This document shows, piece after piece, positions 5,380-39,420 of a stretch of DNA of 64,000 bases. The notes beneath the pieces were generated by a model, which had not been told where the DNA came from, did not search any database, and saw only the letters and a program-made list of their open reading frames with translations. This DNA is from Strigamia acuminata (Eukaryota; Arthropoda; Chilopoda; Geophilomorpha; Linotaeniidae). Made by a program: the position numbers and the translations under genes. Position 1 is the first letter of the stretch. Each line of letters starts with the position of its first letter. The stretch spans positions 2,108,001 through 2,172,000 of the forward strand of contig OX442315.1 in NCBI GenBank assembly GCA_949358305.1. The letters run 5' to 3'.

Positions 5380-5949
5380 TGTCACGTGTACGAACCGTGT
5401 CGATTAATGCGCGATTCGTAACACGTAATTTGAGTTATTATTAGTTTAATGTTGCTAAATTTCGGCAACAGATGGCGTGGCGATTGGAAACCGTCATCGT
5501 CGTCTGTTAGACCGATCAATTCGATTAAGGGTAGAATAGGAGATTTCCTATGAACTGACCCACTCTAAGACAGCTCACTTAATCTTATGTTGCTTTACAG
5601 GAAACATCAAATTACTTTACCAGTCTAATGTCGCTCGATACTGAGTACGGCTGCCGACTTGGGTTTTGACATTTATTTAACTTAGATAATTTATCACCCA
5701 GTTGTTAAGTGTTTGTTTGATTGTACTGAATTAATATAATGTAAATGCCATTTCATTCAAAGTTGTTGATGATGATTTATTCGATTTGTAAAGCGCACAA
5801 TTAATGAAGGTCGAACAGACTTTGTCTGTCCGATCTAATAAAGATTAGATTTGAATTTAAAACTATAAACAACGCCTCATTCTTTCTCTATCACTCAGTC
5901 AAAATACAGTTGCGTGGAACTCGGATTGGAGCCCAGGATCCACGTAACA
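5380..5949 (+). repeat. 5' LTR of element A
   Basis: Starts TGTCACGTGTACG and ends CCACGTAACA. It matches the 3' LTR at 36886-37455 over 570 bp with one visible difference. An AATAAA signal lies at 5837-5842. No strong TATA box was picked out. Confidence 0.92.
5809..5842 (+). promoter_or_regulatory. Hairpin abutting the LTR poly(A) signal
   Basis: GGTCGAACAGAC and GTCTGTCCGATC pair around a TTT loop, giving 12 positions with one A/C mismatch and one G/T wobble. AATAAA follows one base later. The diverged LTR of element F has the same structure at the same place (40296-40323) with compensatory base changes, which argues for an RNA structure. It recurs in the 3' LTR of A at 37315-37348. A role in 3' processing is inferred from its position. 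Confidence 0.6.
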
Positions 5950-5967: not shown

Positions 5968-7121
5968 CTTTCCCATACCGCATAAAAATTAGAATAAAAT
6001 TTGAAAAATTAGCGAAAATTTTGAAATTAAGCTTAGTTTGCTTGAGTTTACCTAGTGATTGGTTTTTCAGGAAATTGGAAAATTAAAATTGGGAAATTTA
6101 AGCATTTAGAATTGAAATTTGTGGAAAATTAGTTTAAAAATCATATAAAATTTTGAAAAATTGTAACTTAATTTGCATACAGATGATTCATTGATAAGAG
6201 TGATAGAAATGAAAAAGGTGACTCATTGCTAATAAAGATAATAGACTTAATTGAGTTAATTGGTGAAATTGGGAAATAAAATATAACAAAATAACTTTGA
6301 ATATTTAATTGAATGAAGTGATATTGAGTGATATTTATTGTGAAGTTTAATTGTAAATTGAATATGAATGGTGACGTTTATTATTATTAAATAGGGAATT
6401 TAGTGTTTTCCATTTTGATGAAAGAGTATATTAATAAAATATATAGTTTGAATTTATTAATGAATTTTTGAATTTCAGGATATTTTTGTAATTATTTACT
6501 AATAAAAAGTTTTCTTGAATATTTGCTACTAATAGATTTAATAAAGTTTTGAAATATGACCATGAAAATTTAATTGTTTTGAAAATTTTGAAATTTGATT
6601 GTGAAGATTGAATTGTTTGAATTGTTTAATCATTGACTTATTTTCAGAGAGTTAAAAGTGTTATAGTGTTATTTGCAATTGAATAAACTGAGTCTGAGTG
6701 CTTCAAAGGATTGTGTCTTCAGTTTAATTAATTAATCATTGCGGAATCCAAACGTTATAAACTGCCAGAGTTTGTAGCAGATTATCTGTTTTCCAAAAAG
6801 GAACCAGGAGAACCTGATACACCTAAAGAGTTACTGGATGATAAAGTAACTGGTCGGAAGTATAGATCAAAATCCAAAGGTGAACAAAAAACACAAAAAA
6901 GGGAAGATCTTGAAACTCCCGAGCAGCGTAATAAAAGATTAATAGATCCAGGTGTGTATAATTGGTTATTGCCTAAGAAACAATTAGAATTAGGCGATCT
7001 TTTGGAAAGGGTACAGGTAAATTTGGACGACGTATTTGAGGACGCAGCCAAAGATATTGAAGAGCACGAGGAACCAATTCAACCAAAAGTGGAAATAAAA
7101 ATTGAACAATCTTCTACTAAA
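5968..7121 (+). other. Leader of element A, with in-frame extension upstream of gag
   Basis: Very AT-rich untranslated leader up to about 6730. From about 6732 the gag frame is open all the way to the first in-frame ATG at 7122, and it encodes a charged, protein-like sequence without any ATG. Element H has a comparable ATG-less in-frame extension before its gag. This may mean non-AUG initiation or a spliced upstream start. Confidence 0.5.
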
Positions 7122-8243
7122 ATGGCTAATGCTTCGCCATCATCAGAACTGGTAGCAATACAGACAGTGTTACAAAACTTAGTGGTCAATAGAAGAAATC
7201 CAGTTGATTTTGATCCGGCTACAGGAAATATTGACACGTGGTTGATTGGATATGAAGATACGATCGCCGATGATACTGAACGTATTAAGCATCTGTCAAT
7301 TGTGCTGAAATCTTCCGCATCATCATGGTATTTAGATCAACTTCCACTGTATCCGACTAGAACATGGACACAATGGAAAGATGCGTTGAAGACGAAATTT
7401 AGACGACAAATAACAACGATTTTGTCGAAATTACAAGCAATGCAGCACAAGGATGGAACAGCTTTGGAACACATGCAGAAGATACTAAAAGAATGTTCTT
7501 TTGCAAGACCATCATTCACTGAAGAGCAAAAGATATTTCATGTGTTTCAGACACTTAAAAAGGCGACTAGAGATAAATTAGTAGTCAACTTTCCAAAGAC
7601 GTTGGATCAACTAACATCTCAACTTGGGTTATTGGAAGCTCATGCATTCAATGAGGACCCTGCAGAAGTTTTACTAACCCTACTGCAAAAAGCTGTTGAT
7701 ACACCTAGTAAGGTGACACCGAGTTGCTTGGTAGAACCGAGCGACGTCAATAAAACAAAAGACGAGTTGTTAGCAGAGGTCAAAGTGCTAAGACAACAGC
7801 AGCAGTTTGGGGATGTTCAATATGCAGAGGTTACTCCAGTCTTCTACCAAAACCAATGGTATACGCCACATCCAAACCAGGCGCAGTTCTACAATAGAGG
7901 TAACTTTAGAGGACGACCTGGACAACAACGAGGATGGTGGAATAATAACAACAATTGGAACCAAGGTAGAGGATGGAACAATAGAGGTCAAAACAGAGGT
8001 AATTGGAATGATCAGTGGAATAATTCAGGTCAAGGATTCCAACAACAATATCCACAACAGCAATGGAATCCGCCACAACAGCAAAGGAACCCACCACAAG
8101 GTCAAAGACAACAGGGGAATCCAAATAACCAAGGTCATCCTAAAAATCCAAATTATAAAGGTAAAAATTTTATTGAAAATTACCAAGGCCGAGGAAATCG
8201 AGGAGCCCCACGTGGTGGACCACCTAATGCATCGGGAAACTAG
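7122..8243 (+). CDS. gag: Gag of element A
   Basis: Structural capsid/nucleocapsid precursor that would assemble the cytoplasmic particle. The start chosen is the first in-frame ATG (AAAATGG). It aligns in position with the ATG of H Gag, since both precede the GNID-W capsid motif by a similar distance. The frame stays open upstream to about 6732. Capsid-like helices cover about residues 40-170 (motifs SWYLDQLP, TWTQWKDALK, FHVFQTL). The C terminus has no CCHC zinc knuckle; instead it is RG/QN-rich (GNFRGRPGQQRGWW), likely acting as the RNA-binding part. It ends TCG GGA AAC TAG, so the stop directly follows a slippery heptamer leading into pol. The frame is intact. Confidence 0.85.
   Translation: MANASPSSELVAIQTVLQNLVVNRRNPVDFDPATGNIDTWLIGYEDTIADDTERIKHLSIVLKSSASSWYLDQLPLYPTRTWTQWKDALKTKFRRQITTILSKLQAMQHKDGTALEHMQKILKECSFARPSFTEEQKIFHVFQTLKKATRDKLVVNFPKTLDQLTSQLGLLEAHAFNEDPAEVLLTLLQKAVDTPSKVTPSCLVEPSDVNKTKDELLAEVKVLRQQQQFGDVQYAEVTPVFYQNQWYTPHPNQAQFYNRGNFRGRPGQQRGWWNNNNNWNQGRGWNNRGQNRGNWNDQWNNSGQGFQQQYPQQQWNPPQQQRNPPQGQRQQGNPNNQGHPKNPNYKGKNFIENYQGRGNRGAPRGGPPNASGN
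8234..8240 (+). promoter_or_regulatory. -1 ribosomal frameshift site GGGAAAC in gag-pol of A
   Basis: The heptamer lies in the canonical phase (G GGA AAC in the gag frame) and is followed immediately by the gag stop TAG at 8241-8243. Slipping back one base enters the pol frame, which is open from 8228 onward. pol has no ATG near its start. GGGAAAC is an established retroviral-type slip sequence. Confidence 0.8.
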
Positions 8244-11200
8244 AATGGCCACAAAGACGAAATAACAAAAAGAAGAGAAGAAGAAAAAGGAAGTTAGAAA
8301 TTATTGAGTTGAACGCCACAGATGAACTTTTGCAAATTCCAGTAGTGGTGAATGGTATGGAGATAACAGGTGTCTTGGATTCTGGAGGTTATCGTAATAT
8401 TATTAATGAAGATTTAGTAAGAACATTGCAGCTCAAATATCAACCATGTCCATACATTCGACTTAGAGTTGTAGATGGTTCAATAATAATCCCAGAAGGA
8501 AAAACCAAGATCACTATTGACGTTGGACAACAGCAACACACCATTGAAGTGCTGATCGTCAACGGATTTGGCCACCATTTACTGCTCGGGCATAGCTTTC
8601 TGACATCTGCGAGGTGTAAACTTGATTACGACCACCAGAAGATCTTTGTAGGCCCAAAAGATGAACAACAAGAAATTTTCCCAATGTCTAAAAATCATAC
8701 CGATCAAAATTACATAGCTCGAGTTTTGAAACCTATTACTATACCAGCTTTACATGAATGTATTGTACCAATAAAAATTGCAAAGAAAGTAGACGATGAA
8801 TTATTTATTGGACCACTTAGTGGAGTAGTAGATCGATTTGGAGTGATTTGCTGTAAAACATTGACCAAATTCAGAAAAGGTGAAGGAGTTCTGCGAGTTG
8901 CAAATCCGACTAAAAAGACAATTTATTTAGGACGTAATTCAGCAATTGCAAAAGCTTTTTATGTAATTGAGTCTGGCGTGCTTGATGAAAAAAGAGATGA
9001 TCATTTTGACTTTAGCACGTCAATGGCAAATGACAATATGACGCCATCACAACAGGAGCTGATGCTACAATTGTTGAAGAAAAATTCAGATAGATTTGCG
9101 AAGACTGATAATGATTTAGGCAGAGCTCACACGATTAGGCATCGAATAGATACTGGAGATTCTCCTCCAATCCATTTACAACCTTATAGACGATCAATTA
9201 AGGAAAAAGAAATCGAGGATGCTGAAACAAAGAAGTTACTTGAGCAAGGAGTCATTAGAGAATCTGAGAGCCCATGGAGTGCACCAGTACTACTCATCAA
9301 AAAGAGAGACGGCAAATGGAGATTTTGTGTAGATTGGAGACGTTTGAATGCAGTGACAAAGAAAATGGTGTATCCCTTACCACGTATAGATGACACCCTA
9401 GATCAGCTAGCGGGTGCAAAGTATTTTTCAATGATGGATCTCATTCAGGGATATCACCAAGTCGAAATAGATGAACAAGATCGTGAGAAAACAGCGTTCA
9501 CTACTTCAAGCGGACACTATGAGTTTAATGTCCTTGGAATGGGATTATGTAACAGTCCAGCAGCCTTTCAAAAATTGATGAATAAGGTACTTGGTAATCT
9601 CCTGGGAAAAGTATGTATAGCATATCTTGACGATTTGATAGTGTTTTCAAAGACTTTCGACCAGCACCTCGTCGATTTGGAGGCAGTTTTCGAAAAACTA
9701 AGAGCAGCGAATTTAAAAGTCAAACTGAGTAAATGTACGTTTGCAACAGACACCATACGATACCTCGGACATGTGGTTGATGCTGAAGGTATTTCACCGG
9801 ATCCCAGGAATCTGGATTCAGTAGCTAAGTTTCCAATTCCTGTGAACGTTAAACAACTACGTGGTTTTCTTGGATTATGCTCGTATTACCGGAAATTTAT
9901 TAAAGGTTTTGCGGACATTTCCAAACCTCTGGTGAATTTAACCAAAAAGGATGAAAAGTTTGATTGGGGACCTCCTCATGAAAAAGCATTCCACACGCTT
10001 CGAACAGCATTAATAACAGTGCCGGTGTTAGCGCATCCAGATTTTACTCAGCCCTTCATGATTTCATGCGATGCAAGTGCTTACGGATTAGGAGCTATTT
10101 TGAAGCAAAAAGTCAACAATCAAGAGCGTGTTATCGCTTATGCAAGTCGTATGATGAGCACAGCAGAAATGAATTACACTGCGACTGATAGGGAAATGTT
10201 AGCAATCATCTTTGCTATTGAAAAGTTTAGACCGTACTTATATGGACAGAAATTCCAAATTATTACCGACCATTCTGCCCTCCAATGGCTGAAAGGAGTC
10301 CGAAATCCAAATGGACGTCTAGCCAGGTGGGCGCTGCAACTAGCTGAGTATGATTTTGAAATATTTCATAAAAGTGGCAAGAAGCACACAGATGCTGATG
10401 CCCTGAGTAGGATCCAGGAAGAGTTAAGTGAAGAAGAAATCAAAAAATTGCCTTCGCTTCTCTTAGAAAATTTGGACCTCCCTGCTGAGCAGAGGAAGGA
10501 TCCTAAACTTCTGGACCTCATAACAGCGCTAGAAAACCAAGAGCAACTTCCAAGAAAAAGAAGACGACCTCTAAAGCAGTTCGTTCTTCAAAACAAAACG
10601 TTGTTCAGGAAGAAAAAACTAAATAGTTCCCTGAACATGGAAGATTTGTTACTAGTAGTTCCAAAACAACTTCAAACAGATGTATTATATGAAATGCATG
10701 ATGGATTACTAGGAGCTCATTTAGGTTTGGCAAAAACGTGGAAACGAATAAGAACACGATTCTTTTGGACAAGAATTTATAGGGACGTTAGAAATTACGT
10801 CTTGTCCTGCCAAAGTTGCGCGAAAGCAAAAACGATGACTACACCAGCGAAGGGACTAATGCAGCCATGGTCAACAGTTTCAAAGCCTTTTGAGCGAATT
10901 GGAATAGATACACTTGGACCATTTCCATTATCACGTCTTGGAAATAAACATGTTTTTGTTGTGACTGATTATCTTTCGAGAAATGCAATAGCTAGACCAG
11001 CAGCAGCAGCTACAGCGTTAGAAGCAGCGAAAACATTGCTTTATGAAGTTATTCTGAAAGAAGGCAGTCCGAGAGAAATCCTAAGTGACCGTGGAACAGA
11101 ATACAGGAATAAAATGGTTGAGGAAGTCTCAAATATGTTTAAAAGTTTGCATAAAACTACGTCAGGATACCATCCAAGAACAAACGGATTAACTGAGAGA

Positions 11201-11293
11201 TTTAATGCGACATTCGCAAAAATGTTGCAAAGTTACGTTAATGAAGAACATACTGACTGGGACGAATTTCTTCCATTTCTTCTGTTTTCATAC
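8240..11293 (+). pseudogene. pol: Pol of element A, 5' part (protease, RT, RNase H, integrase), interrupted by B
   Basis: Read in the -1 frame from gag. Domains in order, numbered from nt 8309: aspartic protease with LDSGG at about residue 24; reverse transcriptase with the YLDD box at about 439; RNase H (CDASAYGLGA, TDREMLAI, TDHSAL); integrase zinc site (H-H-C-C around HDGLLGAHLG and SCQSCAKAK); and the DDE core with GIDTLGPF, LSDRGTEYRN and TNGLTERFN. No stop or frameshift occurs before 11293, where the frame runs into the truncated LTR of element B and stops at 11326. The rest of the integrase lies at 25373-26019. Comparison with F shows that about 135 bp of pol are missing at the junction, so excision of B alone would not restore it. 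Confidence 0.9.
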
Positions 11294-25372: not shown

Positions 25373-26019
25373 AGTTTACTTTAAGAACAGCGAAATTCAT
25401 TCGAGCAGCCAGGAAAATTGCAAATGAGAGGCTTGAAAAGCAATCAGCAAAAAGTAAGAAAAGGTTTGATGAAGATAGAGTCAACAAGGAGTTTGAACCA
25501 GGTGAATTGGTATATCTGAAAACCATTAATAGAAAAGTTGGCTTGTCAGAGAAGCTTTTACCGCAATTTTCCGGCCCATATGAAATTGTGCGAAGAACTG
25601 CACCGAATGATTATGAAATAATCAATTCAACAAGAAAGAAAAGTGATATAGTGAATGTAGAAAGATTAAAACCGTATAAAGAACGAGTTGAACCAGAAAT
25701 AGACGAAGTTTTGAAAGAATTACCAGAAAAGAAAGTGAAATTTGCTGATAAAGTAAAGAAAATCAGTAAAAAAGGACAAAGTGTAGAAGAAAACATCGAA
25801 AAACCAGTCGAAATGACGAAAATCAAACCGAGAGAACGTTACATAGACGATACAGAACAAATCTCATTAAAATCGCTATTTGAACCACAGCCTTTGATAG
25901 GAACTAATGAAAATCAACTTAAAAATCCGCCACAAGATGGCGCAAATACACAAAAAGACGATTTCCGGTCGCGCAGACTCAGACCGCAGAAACGAAAAGA
26001 TTATCGCCATTGCTACTGA
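25373..26019 (+). pseudogene. pol: Pol of element A, 3' part (integrase C terminus)
   Basis: Continues the integrase of A after element B. It contains the GPY/F-type motif (SGPYEIVRR), a long Lys/Glu-rich tail, and the basic C terminus (FRSRRLRPQKRKDY) that is also found in F and H. It is closely similar to F at 41772-42400. About 135 bp between this piece and the one ending at 11293 are missing. Confidence 0.85.
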
Positions 26020-26908
26020 TTCTTGCTACGGTGAACACGAACTCATAGTGTGACCCGGAAACAAAATCCTTTTTTTTTGTCTATTTATTTATATTTTGTG
26101 TATAATATTGTGTTTCAAAAGGTTTGTACGAATGATATTAATAATTTTAAGTGATTTTAGAGATGAATTTTGAGGTTTTAAACGTTTTTTTGAGCGATTT
26201 TCGTAAGGTGAAACTAATCGCCATGTTCGTTCATTCGTGTTAGAATTTTAATTAGGTGAAAATGTTTTAAACTAAAATTTTAAATAATTAAGAGTAAAAT
26301 TTAATGACACATTAGTGTGAAATAAAATGATTTTAAAGCATAAATAAGAAGTAATGAAAGTGCGAATGGCGGGGACGCTAAAGGACCCAACGCGATCTTC
26401 GTTCATCTGCATTGAATTTTAATTAGGCTTAATAATTTGGGTAAAGTTTTAAAATTATAAAATGCTGAATTTAATAGCATAGTAGAGTAAATTAAAAATA
26501 AATTTCAAAGAGAAAATTTGAAAAATTTAGTTCTAACAACACGAATGATTCGAGACGCGATAAGTGAATTCATTGCGAATTTTGTTAAAATTGAATAAGT
26601 CGGATGAATGTAAATATTTTTCGATGGAAATTTGATTGAATTTTGATAAGAATAATTTATTGTAAATAAGTAAAATGGAATAAGTTGATGTTTGTTTTTG
26701 AAAATATTAATGATTTTTTTTAAAGAAAACTTTTAGGAATTGTTAGAAGTTTGAAGTTTATTATGGAATATTTATTTACAATAGGAATAATTTTATTTAT
26801 TAGGCATAATATAGTTGACATTATTTAATTTCATTTTGTTTTGTTGTATTTTCTTCATAAGTAGGTTGGAACCGTTCAGTGCTTAGTGACAGTGCGAAGG
26901 ACCGTCAA
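26020..26908 (+). other. pol-ORF3 spacer of A with candidate splice acceptor
   Basis: AT-rich non-coding sequence, recognisably homologous to the 3' region of F. Its end has a pyrimidine-rich run (TTTTGTTGTATTTTCTTCATAAG, about 26838-26861) with AG at 26861 or 26864, about 45 bp before the ORF3 ATG. This looks like a 3' splice site for a subgenomic ORF3 message. Confidence 0.5.
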
Positions 26909-27270
26909 ATGGAAAATATGGCGAGCAAATTCGACAGGATGGACATCCATTCGAGCTCAGATGAGAGTGACGAGTTTGAAATACCAGAATACGAACCAAC
27001 CAAACCGATTGAAGTTGAGCCGATTGAACCAACTGAAGAGTCAACGGACTTAAACGACGTAATGCCTGATCGAGCTGAAGTAGAGATCGACCCGATGGCC
27101 ATGTGGAACTGGTACGACAGGAGTATAGACCTGAACAATCCAACAGCGGGTACCAGTAAAACGATTAAGTTGGAAGACATAGTCCAGTTCGAGCGCCCAT
27201 TTACCAACAGACGTAAGAAAGGTCACAGCCAGCCACCAATGATGCTAGATCCAAATGACCCGAAGTATAT
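26909..27270 (+). pseudogene. ORF3 of element A, N-terminal part, interrupted by element H
   Basis: About 120 codons from ATG 26909. The sequence is strongly acidic (SSSDESDEFEIPEYEP and a run of PIE repeats), then becomes basic (NRRKKGH). The native frame ends at KY where H inserted; the following TWPD and stop at 27289 come from the H LTR. The protein resumes at 35501. The two parts are in the same frame and total 480 codons, the same as if H and one ATAT copy were absent. The acidic part is not recognised; the peptidase domain is in the other half. Confidence 0.8.
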
Positions 27271-27777
27271 TGTTACGTGGCCAGACTGACTACTGTTTGA
27301 CCACGTAAATACTTATGTATTATAACTGGGGGTTTGTAATTGCATTAAGTTAAACTAGCATTTAAACTGTGTTGCTAATAAGAAGGAAATGAAGAGGACT
27401 CATTGTATTATTATTAAAATATAACAGTATGTTTATTAAACCATAAATACAATCTGAAAACAAATATAATTTAACTTAAACTAAATTCTAAAACTATCTT
27501 AAAAATAACCTAAGACTAAATAAGCATGAATAACTTTTGGGATGGGGAAACCTAGAGATGCCACAGCAATAACTGCTTGTCAACCTCTGTGCCCATTTGG
27601 CTCTTGTCAAACATTAAATAGAGCTCGATCGTTCTATTATTCAGTGATAGGTAAAGTCATTACCTCATCCGCTTAAGGCGGACTCTAGTGAGAGTTTTAG
27701 GGGTTATTCTCTAATGATTAACTACGGAAGCGAGGTGGCGACAGCTGATTCACAGCGTGCTCGTCCACCGCGTAACA
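27271..27777 (-). repeat. 3' LTR of element H
   Basis: 507 bp, TGTTACGTGG to CGCGTAACA on the plus strand. A pyrimidine-rich CCCCCTCCTTT follows at 27778-27790, which is the polypurine tract of the reverse-strand element. Confidence 0.9.
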
Positions 27778-28276
27778 GCCCCCTCCTTTAGCTTTTTCGG
27801 ACTCTCGAAAACAAAATACCTAAATAATTACCCCAATTAGCTAACCATGTTATTCATGTTTATAAGTCTGTTTCCCATGTTATTCATGCTTTTACATAAT
27901 TCACACTTCATTTCAAACAATAAAATAATCAAACACAATTTCAAACTATGAAATCAAATGATATGTCAATTTCAACACAATACACTCTATAAAGATAACA
28001 CTTTTTGCTGTTTTTCTCACTTATATTAATTTTTTTGTTTACAGTTTTCCTATTTTCTATACAAACTAATAACTCAAAGAAATAATGCATTACATTCAAT
28101 GTGAATGAAAAATGAAAACAATTACAAAATCAAAAAAAAAAATAATATCAAATTCAAAATAATGAAAGAATTACGCTGTCTCTGCTCGCTCCAGTATACC
28201 TGGGCTCACATCATTGACAAAACAATGAAACAAATAATACAAAAAAAATAATATACACACAACACTTAATGTCCAA
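27778..28276 (-). other. 3' non-coding region of H
   Basis: Polypurine tract next to the LTR, then AT-rich sequence without a gene. Confidence 0.5.
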
Positions 28277-28408
28277 TTAAGGCTGGTTTTCCTCCTTTTC
28301 GAATGGGATCAACTTCTCGTGTAGAATTTCGTACACTATACGCTGGCGCAATTCGATGGGATGGCCATGGCGCATGTTGTCCCTATCCTTGATATACGGT
28401 CCATTCAA
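28277..28408 (-). pseudogene. Remnant of the peptidase ORF3 in element H (C-terminal tail)
   Basis: The reverse strand reads about 43 codons ending in TAA at 28277. The stretch with RDNM, IELRQRIVYEIL and KLIPFEKEE aligns with the last part of A ORF3 (RDLM, SELRVRILYEIQ, KFEPFEE). The catalytic domain upstream is gone; 28409-28948 is AT-rich with no coding sequence. This shows that ORF3 was part of the common ancestor of A and H. Confidence 0.75.
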
Positions 28409-28948
28409 GTTTAATATGTACAAAAATTAAATTAAATTCATTAATGACCAATATAATATACAATCAATTTGTCTAAATTTCATTAAATTTCTAACTTTAT
28501 ACAATATTCAAATTATTTCATCTAAACCAATTAAATATTCATAACTATTTCTATTAAATTCCAAAATTAAATGCTAAGTTACATTTTGAAAAATGTGCTA
28601 AGTTCGCTTTATTTGCTGGAAAAATGGCGATAGATTCGTTTCGTTTCGTTCACTTTCGGGACTTTTATTAATATCTTCCAAAATCCATGAGAATTGTCTT
28701 AAATCTGTTCAAATCATCAAGTAAATTCAAGTTATTCTTGGTTCACTGCAAATAACTTGCGTTCGCCTCAAAAAAACAAGAAAATACAACATCAAAATCA
28801 CATCACGTCTCGCCTACGTTCATTTCAACTTTCGTCAAACAAAAGTACCTACTTTCTCCAAAACTACACAAAATCCTCGTCAATCACGTCTCGAATAACA
28901 GCAATTCCCTTTGCTCACTGCAAATAACTTGCGTTCACTCAAGGAAAG
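28409..28948 (-). other. Non-coding spacer in H
   Basis: AT-rich, nothing recognised. It occupies the place of the pol-ORF3 spacer and the lost part of ORF3. Confidence 0.4.
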
Positions 28949-31900
28949 CTAGTAAAATGCAGTGTAATCCTGGCGTGGTTGCGATCTAAGTCGTCGTGAC
29001 CGGAAATCACTTTCAGCAGGACGTCGCACATGCGTATCGGCGCCAACAGCACTTGCGACACCTGGTGATGGTTTCTGCGACCGATTCTTCTTGCTTTCGT
29101 CTAGCGACGATTTTAGCAACTGATTTCGCTGTTCTAATTCAACCTCCTTTTTCACTCGACGTGCCTCAATTTCCTTCGGCCCGTAAATTGCCTTCAGTCG
29201 CTCCTTTTCAGTTAGAGCTGGTAAATCCGACGCTTTATCTTCGGATTCAAAGAAATTCCGCAACGAAATTTGATCGTCATCATCAATAAACCTTTCCTTC
29301 GCTTCTTTTTTAGGCTTATCTCGCGAATCATCGTCCTTCTTCACAATTTCCGCATTCTGATCGTCTTTTTGCGAATTTTCTTGCACTTCATCAGAAAATG
29401 TTACTTTCTTTGGTGGTAAATCCTGCAGAATAGTTTCTGGAATTTCCTCTCGTGGCTTGTATGGTTTTAAACGCTCAACATTGACAATACTAGTTTTCTT
29501 TCCTGATGAATTCCTTACTTCATAATCGTTTGGCGCTGTGCGTCTAACTATTTCATATGGTCCAGAAAATGGTGGCAGGAGTTTTTCGCTCAACCCTACT
29601 TTCCTATTTGGGGTTTTCAAGTAAACTAGTTCTCCTGGTTCGAATTCAACCACTATTCTGTCCAAATCAAATCTTCTCTTGCTCTTCTCACTCTGCCATT
29701 CTAGTCTTTCGTTGGCAATTTTCCGCATCTCCCTCATAAATCTAGAAGTGCGAAGAGTGAATTCCTTTCGAGGAAGGTTCAAGTTCACATCCACACTCAA
29801 ATCAACTTCATAACCTTTCAACAAATAATATGGGGTATATCCAGTTGTTTCATGGACTGCTGAATTATAGGAGAAAATGACAAATGGTAAAAATTCATCC
29901 CAATCTGTATGATCTTTATTAGTATAACATGTCAACATTTTGGCAAACGTTGCATTGAATCTTTCCGTTAATCCGTTGGTCCTTGGGTGGTACCCGGAAG
30001 TAGATTTGTGCTGGGATTTAAACAGTGCTGATACCTCATTAATCATTTCGTTCCTGTACTCCGTCCCCTTATCGCTGAGTATCTCGCGTGGACTTCCCTC
30101 TTTGAGCATTACCTCGAATACAAGAGTTTTCGCTGCTTCCAACGCTGTACATGCTGGAGCCGCTCTGGCGATGACTGCACGCGACAAGTAATCAGTTATG
30201 ACAAATACAAACTTATTTCCACTATTTGAAACTGGAAAGCTTCCTAACGTGTCTATACCAATCCTCTCGAACGGTCTTGAGATCGTCGACCAAGGTTGTA
30301 ATAAACCTTTTTGTGGAGTGGTCATTGACTTACTTCCTGCGCAATGTGGACAACTGAGAACGTAATTCCTTACGTCCCTGTATATCCTCGGCCAAAAGAA
30401 TCTTACTCTAATTCTTTTCCACGTCTTATTTAGGCCGAGATGAGCACCTACGAGCCCGTCATGCATTTCTTCTAACACTTGCTTACGTAAATGCTGCGGT
30501 ACTACTAAAAGGTTTCCTTCCATGTTTAGAGAATTGTAACTTTTCTTTCTAAACAACGTGTTATCCAGGAGAACGAACTGTTTTAAAGGACGTTTCCTGT
30601 TCCTTGGAAGTTGCTCAATATTCTCCATTGCGGTGATGATCTCCAAAATTTTCTCGTCCTTACGCTGTTCTACAGGTAAGTTGAGTTTTTCGAGAAGTAG
30701 TAAGGGAATAATTTCTTTTTCTTCCTCACCAATCTCTTCTTGGATTCGGCTAAGAGCATCTGCGTCCGTGTGCTTCTTGCCTGAGTTATGCATCACATCG
30801 TAGTCATAATCTACCAGTTGTAAACTCCACCTGGCCAACCTACCGTTGGGATTTTTCACCTTATTCAGCCATTGTAACGCAGAATGGTCTGTCACAATTG
30901 TAAATTTCCTACCGTAAAGATATGGTCTGTACTTGTTAATGCCGAATATTATGGCTAAACATTCTCTTTCCGTAGCTGTGTAATTCTGTTCCGCTGTACT
31001 TAATAATCGACTGGCGTAACAAATCACATGTTCTTGCTTGTTAATACGTTGCTTCAGAATTGCACCGAGTCCATAAGCACTTGCATCCGTAGACACAATG
31101 AATGGCTCTGCAAAATTTGGATGTGCTAAAACTGGTACCGTAACTAAAGCTGTTCGTAAGGCCTTAAAAGCTGTTTCCTGTGGTGGTCCCCAATCAAAAG
31201 CTTCATCTTTGCGAGTTAAGTTGGCTAAGGGCTTGGATACGTCCGCAAATCCTGGAATGAACTTTCGATAATACGAACACAAACCCAAAAACCCTCTCAA
31301 CTGCTTCAAATTTGTTGGTTTTGGAAATTTAGCTACACTTTCCAAATTACGTGGATCAGGTGACACTCCATCAGAATCAACTATGTGGCCTAAATATTTG
31401 ATGGTATTAGTACCAAACGTACATTTGCTAAGTTTAACCTTCAAGTTCGCCTAACGCAGCTTACTGAAGACAGCATCGAGATCCTCCAGATGCTGATCAA
31501 AAGTCTTCGAGAAGATTATAAGGTCGTCAATATAAGCTATACAGACCTTGCCAAGAAGATTACCAAGCACCTTGTTCATCAATTTTTGAAACGCAGCTGG
31601 GCTATTACATAATCCCATTCCTAGGACGTTAAACTCAAAATGTCCGCTTGAAGTGGTAAACGCTGTTTTTTCACGATCTTGTTCATCTATTTCGACTTGA
31701 TAATATCCTTGAATAAGATCCATCATCGAAAAATACTGGGCCCCTGCCAGTTGATCTAAGGTGTCATCAATCCTGGGCAGTGGGTATACCATTTTCTTTG
31801 TGATCGCGTTTAACCTCCTCCAATCGACACAAAATCTCCATTTACCGTCTCTTTTCTTGATGAGTAGTACTGGTGCACTCCATGGACTTTCTGATTCCCT

Positions 31901-32984
31901 AATGACTCCCATCTCAAGCAACTTTCTGGTCTCTTCTGCCTCTACTTCTTTTTCCGCGATTGAACGTCTATAAGGCTGCAAATGTATTGGATCATGGTCC
32001 CCCGTATCAATTTTGTGTTTAAATGTCGTTACTCTACCTAAGTCTTTGTCTGTGGCTGCAAATCTATCTTGATTCTTTTGAAGTAACTCCTTCATCTGCT
32101 CTTGTTGGTCATCTTATCTTTAGCAATCGAGGAGTCAAAGTCAAAGCAATGCACTTGCTTTTCATCTGTCAACTCAACCGCTTTGGTTGAGGAGTCAGAG
32201 CAATGCACTTGCTTTTCATCCAACAACCCAATCTCAATAATGTAATACGCCTTACCAATTGCAGATTTCTCCTTCAGAAAGACTGATTTGTTTGTTGGAT
32301 TAGCCACACGCAGAACTCCTTTACCATACTCAAAATTTGTTAATGTTTTACAACACAAAATCCCAAACCTATCTATTACATTTCCTAGAGGTTCCATAAA
32401 CATTTCTGTGGTTAACTTCGTATTTAAATAAACTGGTATAACGCATTCATGCATTGGTGGAATTGAAATATTCTTCATCACTCTGGCGACATAACTCTGG
32501 TCCGAAAACGATTTATTTATTGGAAAAACTGCTTCTTCTACTCCACTATCATTGTTCCGGCCCACAAAGATTTTTTGTAAATCATAATCGACGACAGTTC
32601 TCGTTGACCTCATGAATGGATCCCCCAATAAAAGCTGATGATGAAATCCTGACACTATTAACACTTCCACTTTATAGGTCAGTTTTCCAATTGCAATGTT
32701 CATTTTTGTTTTACCCACTGGAACTACCAAATCCTTTCCTATCCCACGTAGCCTAATGTTAGGGCTGGGTGAATAATCCAATTGAAGAGCTATTGCGACT
32801 TCTTCACTTAGAAGGTTTCGTTTGGCTCCAGTATCCATTACCGCTTTTATTTCCATTTCTTTTACAATTACTGGGATTTCCAACAATGACTCCGATACCT
32901 GAACGTCAATTATAACTATCTTACTCTTCTTCTTTTGTCTTTTCCTTTTCTTTGGGTGGCAACAATTTCTCTGTGGCCGTTCAA
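28949..32984 (-). pseudogene. pol: Pol of element H, inactivated by a frameshift and a stop
   Basis: Read in the -1 frame from gag. Protease (VMDTGAKRN) is in 32092-32886. The reading then shifts: compared with A there is a 7-nt deletion near 32100, leaving an ATGA overlap of stop and next frame. RT continues at 31451-32095 with YIDD and is cut by a TAG at 31451-31453 between KLR and ANLKVKLSK. The rest (31444 to 28949) is open: RNase H (TDASAYGLGA, TDHSAL), integrase finger (HDGLVGAHLG, CPHCAGSK), core (IDTLGSFP, LSDKGTEYRN, NGLTERFN), GPYEIVRR and the basic C-terminal tail. It cannot make a normal Pol without correction of both lesions. Confidence 0.9.
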
Positions 32985-34025
32985 CTAGTTTTTCGAATTT
33001 TGGGCCTTCGTTTGTGCCTGAGGATTAGGGTTTCCATCTTGCTGTTCACCTCTTCTCCTCTTTTTATTCCACTTCCAGCTGTTACTTCCACCTCTTTCCT
33101 GTTGCTGTTGTTGTTGTTGTTGTTGCCTGGGTGGATTATAAAACTCACAGCTGAAATGATGATAACATCCGCATGAACGGTTATTAGAATTATTACTATT
33201 GTTAGTATTATAATTATTGTAATTAGGATTAAAGCCTTGTCTACCGCCTCTACTTCTACCTCCTTGATTATACTGTCCCCTATTCCTTATTGGCGCATAC
33301 CACTGATTTTGTATCAGTATCGACTCTTCATCCAGCAAATCCACTGACTCCGCTTCTAATAATCGCTGCTTTAAATCAGCGACTTCAGCTATTAACTCAG
33401 CGTGGGTTGGTTGGGTCCCCACAGTTCCACTCAGTTTACCTGCTGTTACTGGGATCACCTTCTCATCCACGATTTTTTTAAACGCTGCGAGTAGAACATC
33501 TGCTGGGTCTTTTACTTTATGACTTTCGAATAACTTAATTCTCTCTTCCATATCCGCCAAAGTCTTCGGGAATACAGTAATCAACATCTTTTGCATTTCC
33601 GGCTTCAATCCTTGAAAAATGTAATTAATCTTCAAATTCTCAGGTAATTCTGGTCGCGCATAAGCACATTCGGCCAAGACCTTCTTCATAAATGCATCGG
33701 CTTTACCTTCTGCATGCCTCATAAAATGAAGAGTGTTCAACACATTTTCCTGGCTTTTCCTGAACTTCTTTTCGATTTGTGGCTTCCATTCTGTCCAAGT
33801 CCAGGTTGGATTCGTTTTATATTGTTCCACAAACCATGCCAGTCCGTCAGTCTTAAGGGCTAACGGTAATTGCTTCACTCGTTCATCATCTGATGCTATT
33901 GTAGCTTCATAAGCCACAAGCCATTGGTCAATGTTACCTTTTTCCGTATCATAACAAACAACTTCGCGCTTTTGTATCAAAATACCCTTGAGAAGATCAG
34001 TTAAAACTGTTGTTGGATCCGCCAT
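32985..34025 (-). CDS. gag: Gag of element H
   Basis: 346 codons from the ATG at 34025 (AAGATGG context), the position matching the A Gag start. The frame is open a further 100 codons upstream with no ATG. The capsid part includes NIDQWLVAYE, LAWFVEQY, WTEWKPQIEKKF and YIFQGLKPEM. The C terminus is RGG/Asn/Gln-rich (GGRSRGGRQG) with a few Cys/His residues but no proper CCHC knuckle. It ends TCG AAA AAC TAG. The frame is intact, so H could still contribute a Gag protein. Confidence 0.85.
   Translation of the reverse strand: MADPTTVLTDLLKGILIQKREVVCYDTEKGNIDQWLVAYEATIASDDERVKQLPLALKTDGLAWFVEQYKTNPTWTWTEWKPQIEKKFRKSQENVLNTLHFMRHAEGKADAFMKKVLAECAYARPELPENLKINYIFQGLKPEMQKMLITVFPKTLADMEERIKLFESHKVKDPADVLLAAFKKIVDEKVIPVTAGKLSGTVGTQPTHAELIAEVADLKQRLLEAESVDLLDEESILIQNQWYAPIRNRGQYNQGGRSRGGRQGFNPNYNNYNTNNSNNSNNRSCGCYHHFSCEFYNPPRQQQQQQQQQERGGSNSWKWNKKRRRGEQQDGNPNPQAQTKAQNSKN
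32988..32994 (-). promoter_or_regulatory. Possible -1 frameshift site GAAAAAC in H
   Basis: The heptamer lies directly before the gag stop, as in A and B, and the -1 frame is open from here through the protease. Its first base is G instead of A, so it is one change from the canonical AAAAAAC and may slip less well. Confidence 0.5.
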
Positions 34026-34969
34026 CTTGGATACAGTTCCTTTTGATGTGGATTCCTTTAATTTTACTGGTGTTAACAATTCAAATACTGATTGAAAAGA
34101 CTTTGATTGCGCAAATTTTAATGGGGTTGCAAAAACAAGTTTATCATCCAATGTGGAAGTATTTTGCTCAACCTCCTTTATTCCAGGTTCCGACTGTGAA
34201 GTTGTTTTTCTTTTCCTAACCGCTACTTTGGAATCATCCACTGTGCTTACTAATTCTCTGTCTAATTCTTGATTCTTTAAGTCCAGTAGATTATCCACTT
34301 GCGCCTGTGACAACTTAACTGGCTGATCCACTGTTAAGCCTTTAATTATACCTTCACTTTATTCACACAACGCTGTAGCAACTCACAACTTTCACTAACC
34401 CTGAAATAAACTTATGCACAATTAATTATCACAATTAGTCACTAATTCAAAATAAATTTCAATAACCAAAAAAAAATTATTATTTTTTCCTGAAAAATAA
34501 TCAAAATTAATCATCAAAATCAACATAAACTTCTACATAAACCAAAAAGAAAACATTTCCTATAATTGAATCATTATTAATATAAGTTTTATCATTAAAC
34601 AAACATTGAATATTCACCACTCTTAACCTCCAAAACAACCTCATTTTATTATAAATTCAACTTGGGTAAATATCTTTAATAAATTCAAATATGTAAATCT
34701 TATTAGTGCACTATAATTAAATATTCAACTGCAATTGACTCTAAAAGAAAGTTTTCACAATGAGTCACCTTTCAATCTTATCACTCATGCAAATGAGTTT
34801 GCAACTTTTCAAAATTTTATATGACTTTTATTTGAATTTTACTGAATTTTAATGCAAATTTGTACGAATTTCAAATGGATCTTCTAATTTTAGCAAATAA
34901 CTGGCCAATTTCACTTTACTTTTACTACTTTTCACTACTTTTAGCCAATTAATGGGTCTCAAATAGAAA
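34026..34969 (-). other. Leader of H with an ATG-less in-frame extension of gag
   Basis: 34026-34331 continues the gag frame upstream without an ATG and encodes a plausible charged sequence, as in A. 34332-34969 is AT-rich non-coding leader. Confidence 0.45.
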
Positions 34970-34986
34970 GAACCGCACCTCCACCA
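34970..34986 (-). promoter_or_regulatory. Primer binding site of H, tRNA-Ala type
   Basis: On the reverse strand TGGTGGAGGTGCGG starts three bases inside the LTR. It differs by one base in the first 13 from the site in A. Confidence 0.6.
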
Positions 34987-34989
34987 CTT

Positions 34990-35496
34990 TGTTACGTGGC
35001 CAGACTGACTACTGTTTGACCACGTAAATACTTATGTATTATAACTGGGGGTTTGTAATTGCATTAAGTTAAACTAGCATTTAAACTGTGTTGCTAATAA
35101 GAAGGAAATGAAGAGGACTCATTGTATTATTATTAAAATATAACAGTATGTTTATTAAACCATAAATACAATCTGAAAACAAATATAATTTAACTTAAAC
35201 TAAATTCTAAAACTATCTTAAAAATAACCTAAGACTAAATAAGCATGAATAACTTTTGGGATGGGGAAACCTAGAGATGCCACAGCAATAACTGCTTGTC
35301 AACCTCTGTGCCCATTTGGCTCTTGTCAAACATTAAATAGAGCTCGATCGTTCTATTATTCAGTGATAGGTAAAGTCATTACCTCATCCGCTTAAGGCGG
35401 ACTCTAGTGAGAGTTTTAGGGGTTATTCTCTAATGATTAACTACGGAAGCGAGGTGGCGACAGCTGATTCACAGCGTGCTCGTCCACCGCGTAACA
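34990..35496 (-). repeat. 5' LTR of element H
   Basis: Identical by eye to 27271-27777 over 507 bp. On the plus strand it supplies an ATG at 35433 that is in frame with the downstream half of A ORF3. Confidence 0.9.
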
Positions 35497-35500
35497 ATAT

Positions 35501-36581
35501 CAAAAAGAAAAACCGTCAGGACCGACGTAAGCGAAATAGGACCTTGCGTCGTAAAACTGAAGGTATCGAGAAAAAGAAATTAACACCAAGGGGTTTGAAA
35601 ATTATTCGAGAGCAATCTCAGCGAGCGGTGAGGAGAAATTTCCGTCGTTTGCTGGAGATTAACGTTGAACGGAGAAATCTAGCGGCGGCGGTTATTCCTC
35701 TTCAACCGAAGGGCGCGGAAGGACGACCGATCTTTCAAGCTTATAAGCAGGAGGCGCAGGTATTGATTCTGGAAGAAGCGAAGATTCGTAATAAAGTGGA
35801 TCGCGCGAAAGAATTAGGGAAAAGAACAGCGCTTTATGATCCGCGAATCAACCTACCGTTACCACCAGTTGACTATGAAGTCAAGATTCCTGCAGATAAA
35901 GCGATGGAAGCCCTGGAGAAATGGCCGGAATATTTTCAACATCACCCGGATGAGCAAATGTACGTGTCGGAAGTGCGACCACACATCGCGGTCGGCCCTA
36001 GAGAAATGATCTCTTTAGGAGCATTAATGCCAGGCCGCATATCTTGGGTTTACGACACGGTGGTTGACTATTATTTGGGTATGTTGATGAAGCAATATCC
36101 AATAGTTTATGCGTTTCCAGTGGCAACCGTGGCGAAATTAATGAAAGGCGAGGATAAACCCAATACATGGCGATGGTTCCGTGACCAAGTTGACCAACCA
36201 ACAAAGCAGCACAAGATCTGGTTCTTCCCCATACCGGCGGAGGAGCACTGGATCATATATGTGTTCAATATGGAGCGTTCTCCGCCGTGTGTGGGGTTCT
36301 ACGACTCGTCGGGAAAGCCACACGTGGATCATTTCACGTGGTGGAGTAATATTAAACTCAATTTAATAGGTTCTGGATACGAAATACCGAGATACGAGCC
36401 ATGGGAACCACCAAAAGCAGCCCAGCTCGATGGGGACAGCTGTGGGCCCATGATTTTACATTTTGCTCGTAGATACGTTGAGTGCCGAGACCTGATGAAG
36501 TTAGCGGAGGGCTCGGAATTGCGAGTTCGAATCCTGTACGAGATCCAGCATGGAAAATTCGAACCTTTCGAAGAAATTTAA
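35501..36581 (+). pseudogene. ORF3 of element A, C-terminal part: ULP1/SENP-like C48 cysteine peptidase
   Basis: About 360 native codons. A Lys/Arg-rich, probably nuclear-targeting segment comes first (KKKNRQDRRKRNRTLRRK). The peptidase fold follows. Counted from the open frame at 35433: substrate-side motif MPGRISWVYDTVVDYYLG (about 199-216), catalytic His272 in EHWIIYVFN, Asp291 in GFYDSSG, oxyanion Gln331 and nucleophile Cys337 in QLDGDSCGP. The Q-C spacing of 6 and the His-Asp and Asp-Gln spacings (19 and 40) agree with Ulp1. Family enzymes cleave SUMO-type or related protein linkages, or process viral precursors in adenovirus-type relatives. It could process element proteins or remove host modifiers; either role is inference. 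All catalytic residues are present, but H separates this half from its start at 26909. Confidence 0.85.
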
Positions 36582-36793: not shown

Positions 36794-36885
36794 CCGAACA
36801 TTCCTTATGAATGTCCGACTATAAAAGAGACCTGTCTGGACCGAAATTTGTAATTTGGGGTCCAAATCACAGCAAAAAAGGGAGT
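36582..36885 (+). other. 3' non-coding region of A: A-run and two polypurine tracts
   Basis: AAAAGGGAGT at 36681-36690 and AAAAAAGGGAGT at 36874-36885 are separated by about 190 bp; the second abuts the LTR and is the primary polypurine tract. F has both at the same places. A run of about 26 A residues (about 36764-36789), absent from F, lies between them. Confidence 0.65.
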
Positions 36886-37455
36886 TGTCACGTGTACGAA
36901 CCGTGTCGATTAATGCGCGATTCGTAACACGTAATTTGAGTTATTATTAGTTTAATGTTGCTAAATTTTGGCAACAGATGGCGTGGCGATTGGAAACCGT
37001 CATCGTCGTCTGTTAGACCGATCAATTCGATTAAGGGTAGAATAGGAGATTTCCTATGAACTGACCCACTCTAAGACAGCTCACTTAATCTTATGTTGCT
37101 TTACAGGAAACATCAAATTACTTTACCAGTCTAATGTCGCTCGATACTGAGTACGGCTGCCGACTTGGGTTTTGACATTTATTTAACTTAGATAATTTAT
37201 CACCCAGTTGTTAAGTGTTTGTTTGATTGTACTGAATTAATATAATGTAAATGCCATTTCATTCAAAGTTGTTGATGATGATTTATTCGATTTGTAAAGC
37301 GCACAATTAATGAAGGTCGAACAGACTTTGTCTGTCCGATCTAATAAAGATTAGATTTGAATTTAAAACTATAAACAACGCCTCATTCTTTCTCTATCAC
37401 TCAGTCAAAATACAGTTGCGTGGAACTCGGATTGGAGCCCAGGATCCACGTAACA
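36886..37455 (+). repeat. 3' LTR of element A
   Basis: 570 bp, same termini as the 5' LTR with one visible difference. ATAT (37456-37459) follows as the target duplication. Confidence 0.92.
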
Positions 37456-37459
37456 ATAT

Positions 37460-37602
37460 GGATTAGTGCCAACCCATTGACACTCTGCTCAACACAAATG
37501 CTAAACTACGACGATCAAACATCAAAATAGAGAATTGTTAACCGGAACATTGTAAATTTTCATACCAACGCCTAGTCGAATTGCTGATATACTTAGCTGC
37601 CG
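37460..37602 (+). pseudogene. Ty1/copia fragment (element G), 3' part
   Basis: Continues the RT reading broken at 5379: NMD, stop, CQPIDTLLNTNAKL, then after another stop FSYQRLVELLIYLA, the copia motif usually reading YRxLVGSLLYLA. It is cut off by the minisatellite. Confidence 0.7.
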
Positions 37603-38167
37603 AGGTCGTCTAGAGGTTGTCCAGGGATTGTTCAGAAGTCGTCCAGGGGTCGTCCAGGGGTCGTCCAGGGGTCGTCCAGGAGTCGATTAGGGGTCGACCA
37701 GGAGTAGTCCAGGGATCATCCAGGAGTCGTCCAGGGATCATCCAGGGGTCGTTCAGAGATCGTCCAGGAATCATCCAAGGGTCGTCCAGAAGTTGTTTAG
37801 AGGTCGTCTAGGGGTCGTCCAGGGGTCGTCCAGGGATCATCCAGGGGTCGTCCAGGGGTCGTCCAGGGATTGTTCAGGGGTCGTCCAGAGATCGTCCAGG
37901 AATCATCCAAGGGTCGTCCAGAAGTTGTTTAGAGGTCGTCTAGGGGTCGTCCAGGGGTCGTCCAGGGATCATCCAGGGGTCGTCCAGGGGTCGTCCAGGG
38001 ATTGTTCAGGGGTCGTCCAGGGGTCGTCCAGGGGTCGTCCAGGGGTCGTCCAAGGGTTGTCCAGGGGTTGTCCAGGGGTCGTCCAGGGGTCGTCTAGGAG
38101 TCGTCCAGGGGTCGTCCAGGGGTCGTCCAGGGGTCGTCCAGGAGTCGTCCAGGGGTCGTCCAGGGAT
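37603..38167. repeat. 11-bp minisatellite (CCAGGGGTCGT)n
   Basis: About 50 tandem variants of an 11-bp unit. A block of 12 units recurs once: the variant AATCATCCAAGG is at 37769 and again at 37901, giving a 132-bp higher-order period. Because 11 is not a multiple of 3, open frames with an 11-residue period arise on both strands; they are not genes. Confidence 0.92.
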
Positions 38168-38293
38168 AAACCAGGGACACCAGATTTGTGTCATATTCAA
38201 ATGCTTGCTGCTCGAATACTTAGAGAAGTAGAGACTTATATGCTTTTTAAGAAAGTCCTCTATCTTTTGGTGTTAAAACCATTGAAATTCGAG

Positions 38294-38930
38294 ACCAAAT
38301 TGATCAAATTGACCAAATTGATCAAATTGACCAAATTGATCAAATTGACCAAATTGATCAAATTGACCAAATTGATCAAATTGACCAAATTGATCAAATT
38401 GACCAAATTGATCAAATTGACCAAATTGATCAAATTGACCAAATTGATCAAATTGACCAAATTGATCAAATTGACCAAATTGATCAAATTGATTAAATTG
38501 ATCAAATTGACCAAATTGATCAAATTGACCAAATTGATCAAATTGACCAAATTGATCAAATTGATTAAATTGATCAAATTGACCAAATTGATCAAATTGA
38601 CCAAACTGATCAAATTGACCAAATTGACCAGATAGATTAAAAATACCAAATTGACAAAAAAGATCAAATTAACAAAAAAGACCAAACAGACCAAAAAGAC
38701 CAAACAGACCAAACAGACCAAATTGACCAAAAAGACCAAATTGACAAAAAAGATCAAATTGACAAAAAAGACCAAACAGACCAAAAAGACCAAACAGACC
38801 AAAAAGACCAAACAGACCAAACAGACCAAACAGACCAAATTGACCAAAAAGACCAAATTAAGAAAAAAGATCAAGAAGACCAAAACGATCAAAAAGACCA
38901 AATTGATCAAATTGGTCAAAAAGATCAAAA
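38294..38930. repeat. 9-bp minisatellite (CAAATTGAY)n grading into (ACCAAAMAG)n
   Basis: About 70 units. The first half alternates CAAATTGAT and CAAATTGAC (18-bp dimer); after about 38640 the units change to CCAAAAAGA and CCAAACAGA types. The 9-bp period keeps frames open on both strands (Lys/Leu/Ile/Thr one way, Leu/Val/Asn the other). These frames are spurious. Confidence 0.92.
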
Positions 38931-39420
38931 ATTAATTCTTAATTCTTTTTACATCAGTTGATGCCGTCAAAAGAAGATCGCTTAGATGTAACAGGAGCAA
39001 ATGATTATTCGTTACAATCTAAATATTCAGTACTAAGCCTTGCATCTATTCAAAAAGTATTTTTTCAAAACGTTTGTCAGGGCAGATGCTAATTTTCTTT
39101 TGTACAGTATGAATTTATGAACAAAATCAACCGACAGTGCTTGTCAAAAAAGAAATTTGCTTTGTGTGAAGCAGATTGCATACAACAGGAATTGAAAAAA
39201 TTGAACTTAAAGTGCAGGTTAGTTAGCGACATTCTTTCAGCGACGGTTTGTTTCGGCTACTTCTTGTAACAAAACAAATGCAAGGAAAAACGAGAAAAAC
39301 AATGCACAGCTTATGTGAATACAACCCAGGGGCCAGGAGGACAATAATCTAGAGAATTAAATTTAACCGCTTAACAGAGTATAGTTTAAGCATGGTACTT
39401 GATATGAACTATTGTACAAG
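38931..39420. other. Non-coding, nothing recognised
   Basis: Unique AT-rich sequence between the minisatellite and an inverted-repeat element. Confidence 0.4.

Follow-up and report, generated by a model that had tools for sequence, protein, structure and literature searches.

A Ulp1/SENP-type (C48) peptidase ORF in the env position of a Ty3/gypsy lineage: a possible deSUMOylase acting on element silencing

In a Ty3/gypsy lineage of Strigamia acuminata, a third open reading frame, ORF3, occupies the env position, and the C-terminal half of its product is, as judged by homology, a Ulp1/SENP-type (C48) peptidase domain. Purifying selection acts on ORF3 in several subfamilies; as a gene it is accessory, resembling env in both its position and its loss. 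We put at about even the chance that the protein is a nuclear deSUMOylase which weakens the SUMO-dependent silencing of elements.

Within the window (the whole stretch of DNA analysed, 64,000 nucleotides), element A measures 32.1 kb counting nested insertions and carries gag, pol and then ORF3 ahead of the 3′ LTR, with the ORFs where the initial annotation had placed them:

5380..5949, + strand: 5′ LTR, TG...CA, with ATAT in front (5376-5379)
6954..8243, + strand: gag (Ty3_capsid, 9e-6, under the curated cut-off)
8309..11293, + strand: pol, first part; another gypsy element is inserted behind it, to 25375
25376..26019, + strand: pol, last part (integrase C-terminus)
36875..36884, + strand: polypurine tract ahead of the 3′ LTR, similar in related copies
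36886..37455, + strand: 3′ LTR, with ATAT behind (37456-37459)

The LTR pair of element A is 99.65% identical over the aligned stretch. The element that disrupts its pol is a different gypsy element, with LTRs at 11294-12587 and 24082-25375, and ORF3 is in turn split by element B, a younger relative of A. Both A and B have LTRs of the form TG...CA and an ATAT target duplication on each side, as in Ty3/gypsy elements; the LTRs of B are identical across 508 aligned bases and are flanked by ATAT at 27267-27270 and 35497-35500. The Pfam families of B come in the order Asp_protease_2, RVT_1, RT_RNaseH, Integrase_H2C2 and rve, which is that of a Ty3/gypsy pol. A further relative, element C, has had its ORF3 deleted, the deletion join lying between ~41106 and ~41146. 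The pieces of ORF3 and the two relatives are arranged as follows:

26909..27270 (end approximate), + strand: N-terminal piece of A's ORF3, with the acidic N-terminus; uninterrupted in intact copies, e.g. L010
35497..36581, + strand: C-terminal piece of A's ORF3, with the basic region and the C48 peptidase domain
27271..35496, - strand: element B, inside ORF3 of A, with LTRs at 27271-27777 and 34990-35496
32985-34331, - strand: gag of element B
32092-32886, 31451-32095 and 28949-31444, - strand: pol of element B
28417-28295, - strand: ORF3 relic in element B, the C-terminal 41 codons (46% over 41 aa)
40173..~44279, - strand: element C, 5′-truncated, with pol and 3′ LTR and without ORF3

Because B splits ORF3, the first 21 codons of the ORF that opens at 35433 (35433-35496) belong to B's LTR, as do the final residues, VTWPD, before the stop of the N-terminal piece. 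The initial annotation had counted its residues from 35433; the C48 domain that it recognized there is confirmed, but the LTR origin of those codons and the split by B were overlooked. In agreement with this boundary, the alignment to the 35433 query begins at residue 21 or later in all 29 other copies with loci (L010-L038), and at residue 11 in three distant matches (36-37% identity) among the 108 described below.

The match to C48, which the initial annotation had set as a test of its reading, was weak in Pfam for a single sequence and strong for the family. Against PF02902 the single ORF3 sequence scored 14.7 bits (E 0.028), under the gathering cut-off of 20.7 bits, which is a search threshold and not a biological feature, and four of 12 members matched Pfam C48 at E <=0.1 (best 0.017). 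Searched against solved structures, a profile built from 12 ORF3 sequences found SENP1 at 1.3e-11 (profile positions 251-441), followed by SENP5, SENP2, Ulp1, SENP3 and XopD (the last at 0.0011); all 17 sequences at E <=0.1 were SUMO-protease-type chains, adenain being absent among them. The residues H272, D291, Q331 and C337, correctly counted from 35433 in the initial annotation, correspond to H370, D389, Q429 and C435 of L010. In the 28 ORF3 proteins of at least 390 aa on which conservation was counted (seven shorter ones of the 35 were excluded), W303, W371, D389, Q429 and C435 (L010 numbering) are invariant, and the catalytic H370 is kept in 25, the exceptions being L035 and L036, where it is Ser, and L038, where it is Arg. 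In Ulp1/SENP enzymes the two Trp residues line the Gly-Gly tunnel, and the removal of SUMO-like marks by ORF3, one of the two functions that the initial annotation had suggested, would fit this set of conserved residues. The charge distribution noted in the initial annotation recurs, the N-terminal 70 residues being acidic in seven of eight copies and the middle basic in all eight. No Pfam match at E <=0.1 was found for the N-terminal half; across the 12 members, C48 alone among Pfam families was matched, and no envelope family was. A conserved hydrophobic stretch preceding a PF pair may contain a SUMO-interacting motif; a single-sequence structure model of the protein has a mean pLDDT of 39.

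ORF3 is widespread in this genome, and with the C48 match above, neither of the outcomes that the initial annotation had named as refuting its reading came about. Among 419 candidates, 108 scored matches were found, with identities from 100 to 36%, and the ORF sits behind at least five pol lineages; a tree of pol and a tree of ORF3, for seven elements, have one common topology. Comparison of dN/dS across copies, as the initial annotation had proposed, gave values of 0.05-0.13 in five of six within-subfamily pairs (0.046, 0.060, 0.075, 0.075 and 0.129); the sixth pair, L035/L036, gave 0.88 at a dS of 0.02. Downstream of the L042 type of pol, ORF3 is kept in 41 of 47 scored copies, at a distance of 396-480 nt from pol in 39 of the 41 pairs. 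It is kept in 10 of 17 scored copies of the A pol, six of 18 of the B pol (two B-type copies, L040 and L041, have it intact) and seven of 52 of the C-like class, and 40 scored copies without ORF3 span one common deletion join. Since so many copies are without it, ORF3 is dispensable in cis here. The reverse arrangement, elements reduced to ORF3 without pol, was considered as a successful class and rejected: the deletion in L023 is that of a single copy, its join being spanned by one of 40 scored matches, from 249 candidates.

How ORF3 would be expressed is weakly suggested by a candidate splice acceptor ahead of its start codon:

26838..26864, + strand: candidate acceptor, pyrimidine-rich, with AG at 26863-26864

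Tested by shuffling at 15 non-independent loci, the acceptor reached p < 0.05 in 10 and did not pass in the other five, L040-L043 and the copy of A in the window (p 0.063). The sole donor candidate common to the leaders of A (6218) and B (34768) is AAAG/GTGACTC, which has a poor base at +5 and also resembles an AP-1 site.

These features can be joined into a mechanism. The ORF3 protein would be made from a spliced mRNA and its basic middle region would bring it into the nucleus, where the peptidase may act on SUMO; its targets would be silencing factors of the host, such as those of the Piwi, Su(var)2-10 and SetDB1 arm, and the enzyme, if diffusible, would also serve copies without ORF3. In flies, a Piwi-bound SUMO ligase has been proposed as the recruiter of SetDB1 to transposons (PMC7272611). 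SUMO proteases do not necessarily help elements, however, since in yeast the nuclear-pore-tethered Ulp1 represses Ty1 (PMC8585004). In a broader form, which we advance tentatively as a possibility, the elements would have captured a deSUMOylase that selection has maintained and that has in part been exchanged among subfamilies, and this enzyme would dissolve SUMO-built heterochromatin on them; copies without ORF3 could exploit the enzyme because it is diffusible, and carriers and cheaters would coexist.

Other readings of ORF3 have to be weighed against a deSUMOylase directed at host silencing. The protein might instead strip SUMO from the element's own Gag, integrase or pre-integration complex during nuclear steps, a reading which homology and conserved residues fit equally well and with which the place of ORF3 behind pol in five lineages, and the topology common to both trees, also agree. 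We nonetheless consider it unlikely, as copies without ORF3 have multiplied (the 40 that span the common join), so that they would need the enzyme in trans. Improbable in our judgement is a non-catalytic ORF3, that is, a SUMO- or nucleic-acid-binding protein steering nuclear import or integration: the His is replaced in three of the 28 proteins, from two subfamilies and with open reading frames, and the middle is basic in all eight copies tested, but Asp, Gln and Cys never vary, and the His-less copies (L035, L036 and L038) may be decaying, because one pair has the dN/dS of 0.88 and no pol was found near them within the DNA retrieved around their loci. The initial annotation had suggested that ORF3 may process Gag/Pol; a cysteine peptidase encoded beside gag-pol could act as a second maturation protease, like the adenain-type protease of Polintons, but this is disfavoured, and in our view highly improbable, because pol itself encodes an aspartic protease of the retroviral type (Asp_protease_2, 1.5e-8) and the ORF3 profile finds, at E <=0.1, SUMO-protease-type chains and not adenain. 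That a single copy picked up a piece of a host protease by chance, as the window alone might suggest (A has ORF3 split, B has a relic of it and C has lost it by deletion), is rejected by the 108 matches in several subfamilies, their near-fixed distance behind pol and the purifying selection, and has virtually no probability left.

As to the origin of ORF3, its profile was run on eight C48 loci out of 29 matches in this genome and gave weak scores throughout: 11 bits for a SENP1-like exon (L001), 10 for L002, 8.5 for L005 and 7 for L004, and at most 3 bits, far under SENP1, for the multicopy C48-PHD ORFs (L003, L006-L008). No relatives at E 0.001 were found by protein searches with a single sequence or with 12 sequences (3055 and 5310 candidates), searches that depend on common 5-residue words, whereas querying with pol gave 1195. 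Of the 15 pattern matches among viral contigs, none proved to be a relative. Searches of open-licence PMC papers turned up no LTR retrotransposon with a C48 ORF. ORF3 extends C48 capture, known in several DNA transposons, to LTR elements at the env position. A SUMO-protease-like gene in a retrotransposon would be direct evidence of retrotransposons fighting the SUMO step of piRNA-guided silencing, in which flies employ a SUMO ligase, and would offer a natural tool for testing that step. One genome contains close kin that carry ORF3, that lack it and that have the His replaced, which makes it possible to test whether the gene acts in cis or in trans, whether copies cheat and what the gene costs.

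Among known systems, the Ulp1/SENP proteases share with ORF3 the order Trp, His-Trp, Asp, Gln-x5-Cys and a profile similarity over the catalytic domain; ORF3 differs in being distant, encoded by a retrotransposon and without a Pfam match in its N-terminal half. Ginger1 likewise unites an integrase of gypsy-like type with a Ulp1 domain within one mobile element (PMC2836005), but as a DNA transposon it is flanked by terminal inverted repeats and has its Ulp1 domain fused to the transposase, whereas the ORF3 elements have LTRs, a reverse transcriptase and a separate ORF. C48 proteases have also been captured by Mutator-type (PMC2836005) and, reportedly, Crypton (PMC3212892) elements, which, as DNA transposons, have neither gag nor a reverse transcriptase. 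XopD, the Xanthomonas SUMO protease that the ORF3 profile also finds, is a C48-type protein of a parasite, but it is bacterial and secreted, and the parallel is one of function only. In layout, ORF3 matches the env of errantivirus-type gypsy elements and endogenous retroviruses: it follows pol as a third ORF, precedes the 3′ LTR and has a candidate splice acceptor ahead of it; env, too, is repeatedly lost in copies that multiply, as set out in a review (PMC10536682). Unlike the env product, the ORF3 protein is protease-like and is not an envelope that Pfam recognizes. The coexistence of ORF3 carriers and possible cheaters in one genome can be likened to that of env-bearing and env-less retroviruses.

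Element A, a Ty3/gypsy retrotransposon on the plus strand of the window, contains a third open reading frame (ORF3) between pol and the 3′ LTR, in the position of env, and is interrupted by nested insertions:

5380–5949 and 36886–37455, plus strand: 5′ and 3′ LTRs of element A, 99.65% identical in the aligned stretch
5376–5379 and 37456–37459: ATAT target duplications on both flanks of element A
6954–8243, plus strand: gag of element A
8309–11293 and 25376–26019, plus strand: pol of element A, in two parts
26909 to about 27270 and 35497–36581, plus strand: ORF3 of element A, in two pieces
11294–12587 and 24082–25375: LTRs of a different gypsy element, inserted in the pol of A
27271–35496, minus strand: element B, a related gypsy inserted in the ORF3 of A, its LTRs identical over 508 aligned bases
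27267–27270 and 35497–35500: ATAT target duplications on both flanks of element B

The duplications shared by A and B hint at a preference for ATAT targets. The initial annotation had read the third ORF from 35433; its C-terminal part is genuine ORF3, but the first 21 residues derive from the LTR of element B. Past its own pol, the gypsy element nested in the pol of A likewise has a third ORF (21322–22884, plus strand) of 520 aa; part of this product is rich in Cys, and no Pfam family matched it at E ≤ 0.01. Elsewhere in the window are a piece of an amiloride-sensitive sodium channel (2617–3153; Pfam ASC, 2.5e-9), which points to an animal genome, long repeat arrays with 11-nt and 9-nt periods directly past element A (37536–39000) and a 514-aa ORF (54737–56281, plus strand) that likewise matched no Pfam family at E ≤ 0.01.

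The proposed kinship of ORF3 with the Ulp1/SENP-type (C48) peptidases was weak for the single sequence, which scored 14.7 bits with Pfam C48 (E 0.028), below the cut-off of 20.7, and was borderline against solved structures (SENP2, 0.0043; Ulp1, 0.0051). It became clear with a profile built from an alignment of 12 genomic copies, which retrieved SENP1 best (1.3e-11), followed by SENP5, SENP2, Ulp1, SENP3 and XopD; at E ≤ 0.1 the profile retrieved 17 sequences, every one a SENP, Ulp1 or XopD chain. Scanned singly against Pfam, four of the 12 members matched C48 with E values of 0.1 or lower, the best being 0.017. Among 28 ORF3 proteins of at least 390 aa (seven shorter ones of 35 were excluded), W303, W371, D389, Q429 and C435, numbered as in the intact copy L010, are invariant, and the catalytic His370 is present in 25, being replaced by Ser in L035 and L036 and by Arg in L038. 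Two Trp residues line the Gly-Gly tunnel of Ulp1/SENP enzymes; the two conserved Trp thus suggest that the substrate is a ubiquitin-like protein's tail. The start of the protein is acidic in seven of eight copies and its middle basic in all eight; a single-sequence fold model was poor (mean pLDDT 39).

The search for further copies in the same genome, of 237.5 Mb, yielded 108 scored ORF3 matches of 419 candidates (the window itself at 100%, the others at identities from 98 down to 36%). By hand count, 16 of these matches have an internal stop; complete copies have open frames of about 409–496 aa. Six ORF3-like pieces, three of them equal-scoring, lie on one strand about 10–32 kb apart at G000:C1:47990092-48098935, a local duplication. 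In four loci (L003, L006–L008; six equal-scoring copies), a long ORF combines a C48 domain with a C-terminus that looks PHD-like by eye; we take this to be probably a Mutator-like DNA transposon.

ORF3 is a family gene under selection. Whole-ORF3 dN/dS (Nei–Gojobori), a comparison the initial annotation had called for, was 0.046–0.129 in five of six within-subfamily pairs (L010/L019, 0.075; L010/L014, 0.060; L023/L031, 0.129; L040/L041, 0.046; L042/L043, 0.075) and 0.88, at a dS of 0.02, in the sixth (L035/L036); within-subfamily pol pairs gave 0.06–0.12, and silent sites were saturated in seven between-subfamily ORF3 pairs. For seven elements, a tree built on 363 columns of pol and one built on 437 columns of ORF3 agree in topology, with weakest node supports of 65 and 87, respectively. 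As judged from identities, ORF3 diverges faster than pol: ORF3 of A and of the B-type locus L040 are 39% identical, and pol of L040 and of element C, a 5′-truncated close pol relative of A, 69%. A-type and C-type elements agree at 80.5% of third codon positions in pol and 41.1% in ORF3 (3′ LTR, 70% identical; pol–ORF3 spacer, 68%), and these different depths suggest exchange between subfamilies.

Pol matches were paired with ORF3 matches by coordinates; only the best pol candidates were scored (69 of 4384; 66 of 6669), so that the counts compare scored copies, not totals. Of 17 copies whose pol is of the A type (99% identity to A or higher), 10 have ORF3 4.2–4.4 kb downstream; the window copy, whose ORF3 is displaced by nested elements, brings this to 11. 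ORF3 accompanies 7 of 52 copies in the 96–97% pol class (C-like, with at least one A-like copy), 6 of 18 of the B type, several intact B-type ORF3 copies having no scored pol, and 41 of 47 of the L042 type, an ORF3-keeping group with many equal-scoring copies that looks recent. ORF3 is often lost, by deletion: 40 scored copies (of 88 candidates) span the deletion join seen in element C (window positions about 41106 to 41146), and this join lies downstream in 28 of the 51 pol copies that lacked an ORF3 match (23 at 3.5–3.85 kb, 5 at 4.7–19.9 kb). Two of the remaining copies were inspected: the join in L050 is of this type, and that in L051 differs from it, extending into the LTR. Copies in the Strigamia acuminata genome thus do not need ORF3 in cis.

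Other loci may have ORF3 alone. In L035–L038, with L046–L049 (ORF3 58–64% identical to that of A; L037 with Arg at the place of the catalytic His), gag and pol were not found in the upstream DNA fetched (about 6.5 kb in L035, about 3.3 kb in L038, and about 1.2 kb in both L036 and L037), nor was either in about 2.5 kb fetched for L039 (52%). In L036 and L039, a polypurine tract and then an LTR-like start follow. These orphan copies may be decayed, non-autonomous or domesticated. Two rearranged copies were also seen: L023 (with L045) is a short derivative with the gag start fused to the pol end and ORF3 intact, and in L025 ORF3 directly abuts an LTR end and primer-binding region.

ORF3 starts about 0.4–0.9 kb past pol in the copies measured, and a pyrimidine-rich candidate acceptor lies 5–64 nt before its ATG (shuffle p < 0.05 in 10 of 15 loci), which makes a spliced, env-like mRNA plausible. 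The leaders of A (6214–6228, plus strand) and B (about 34772–34758, minus strand) share AAAGGTGACTCATTG, directly 3′ of a conserved stretch; this could be a weak splice donor or an AP-1-like site.

Processing of Gag/Pol, one role first envisaged for the ORF3 protein, is unlikely because pol encodes a retroviral-type aspartic protease. More likely, the protein would act as a nuclear deSUMOylase, whose activity would relieve SUMO-dependent silencing. In flies, Su(var)2-10, a Piwi-bound SUMO ligase, is a proposed recruiter of SetDB1 to transposons (extract of PMC7272611); in yeast, however, Ty1 is repressed by Ulp1 tethered at nuclear pores (extract of PMC8585004), which counts against a simple anti-silencing role.

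Ulp1 domains occur in Mutator elements and in Ginger1 elements, which have a transposase similar to the integrase of gypsy (extract of PMC2836005), and C48 is mentioned in a Crypton paper (listing of PMC3212892). Searches of open-licence PMC papers turned up no C48 ORF in any LTR element. Named pol relatives, among 120 listed, came from arachnids and one crustacean (37–52% identical), and the same protein collection held no ORF3 relative at E 0.001. The family thus consists of LTR retrotransposons whose accessory gene belongs to a class not found for LTR elements in the sources searched. The loss of ORF3 in this gypsy lineage closely parallels the loss of env in endogenous retroviruses (extract of PMC10536682).
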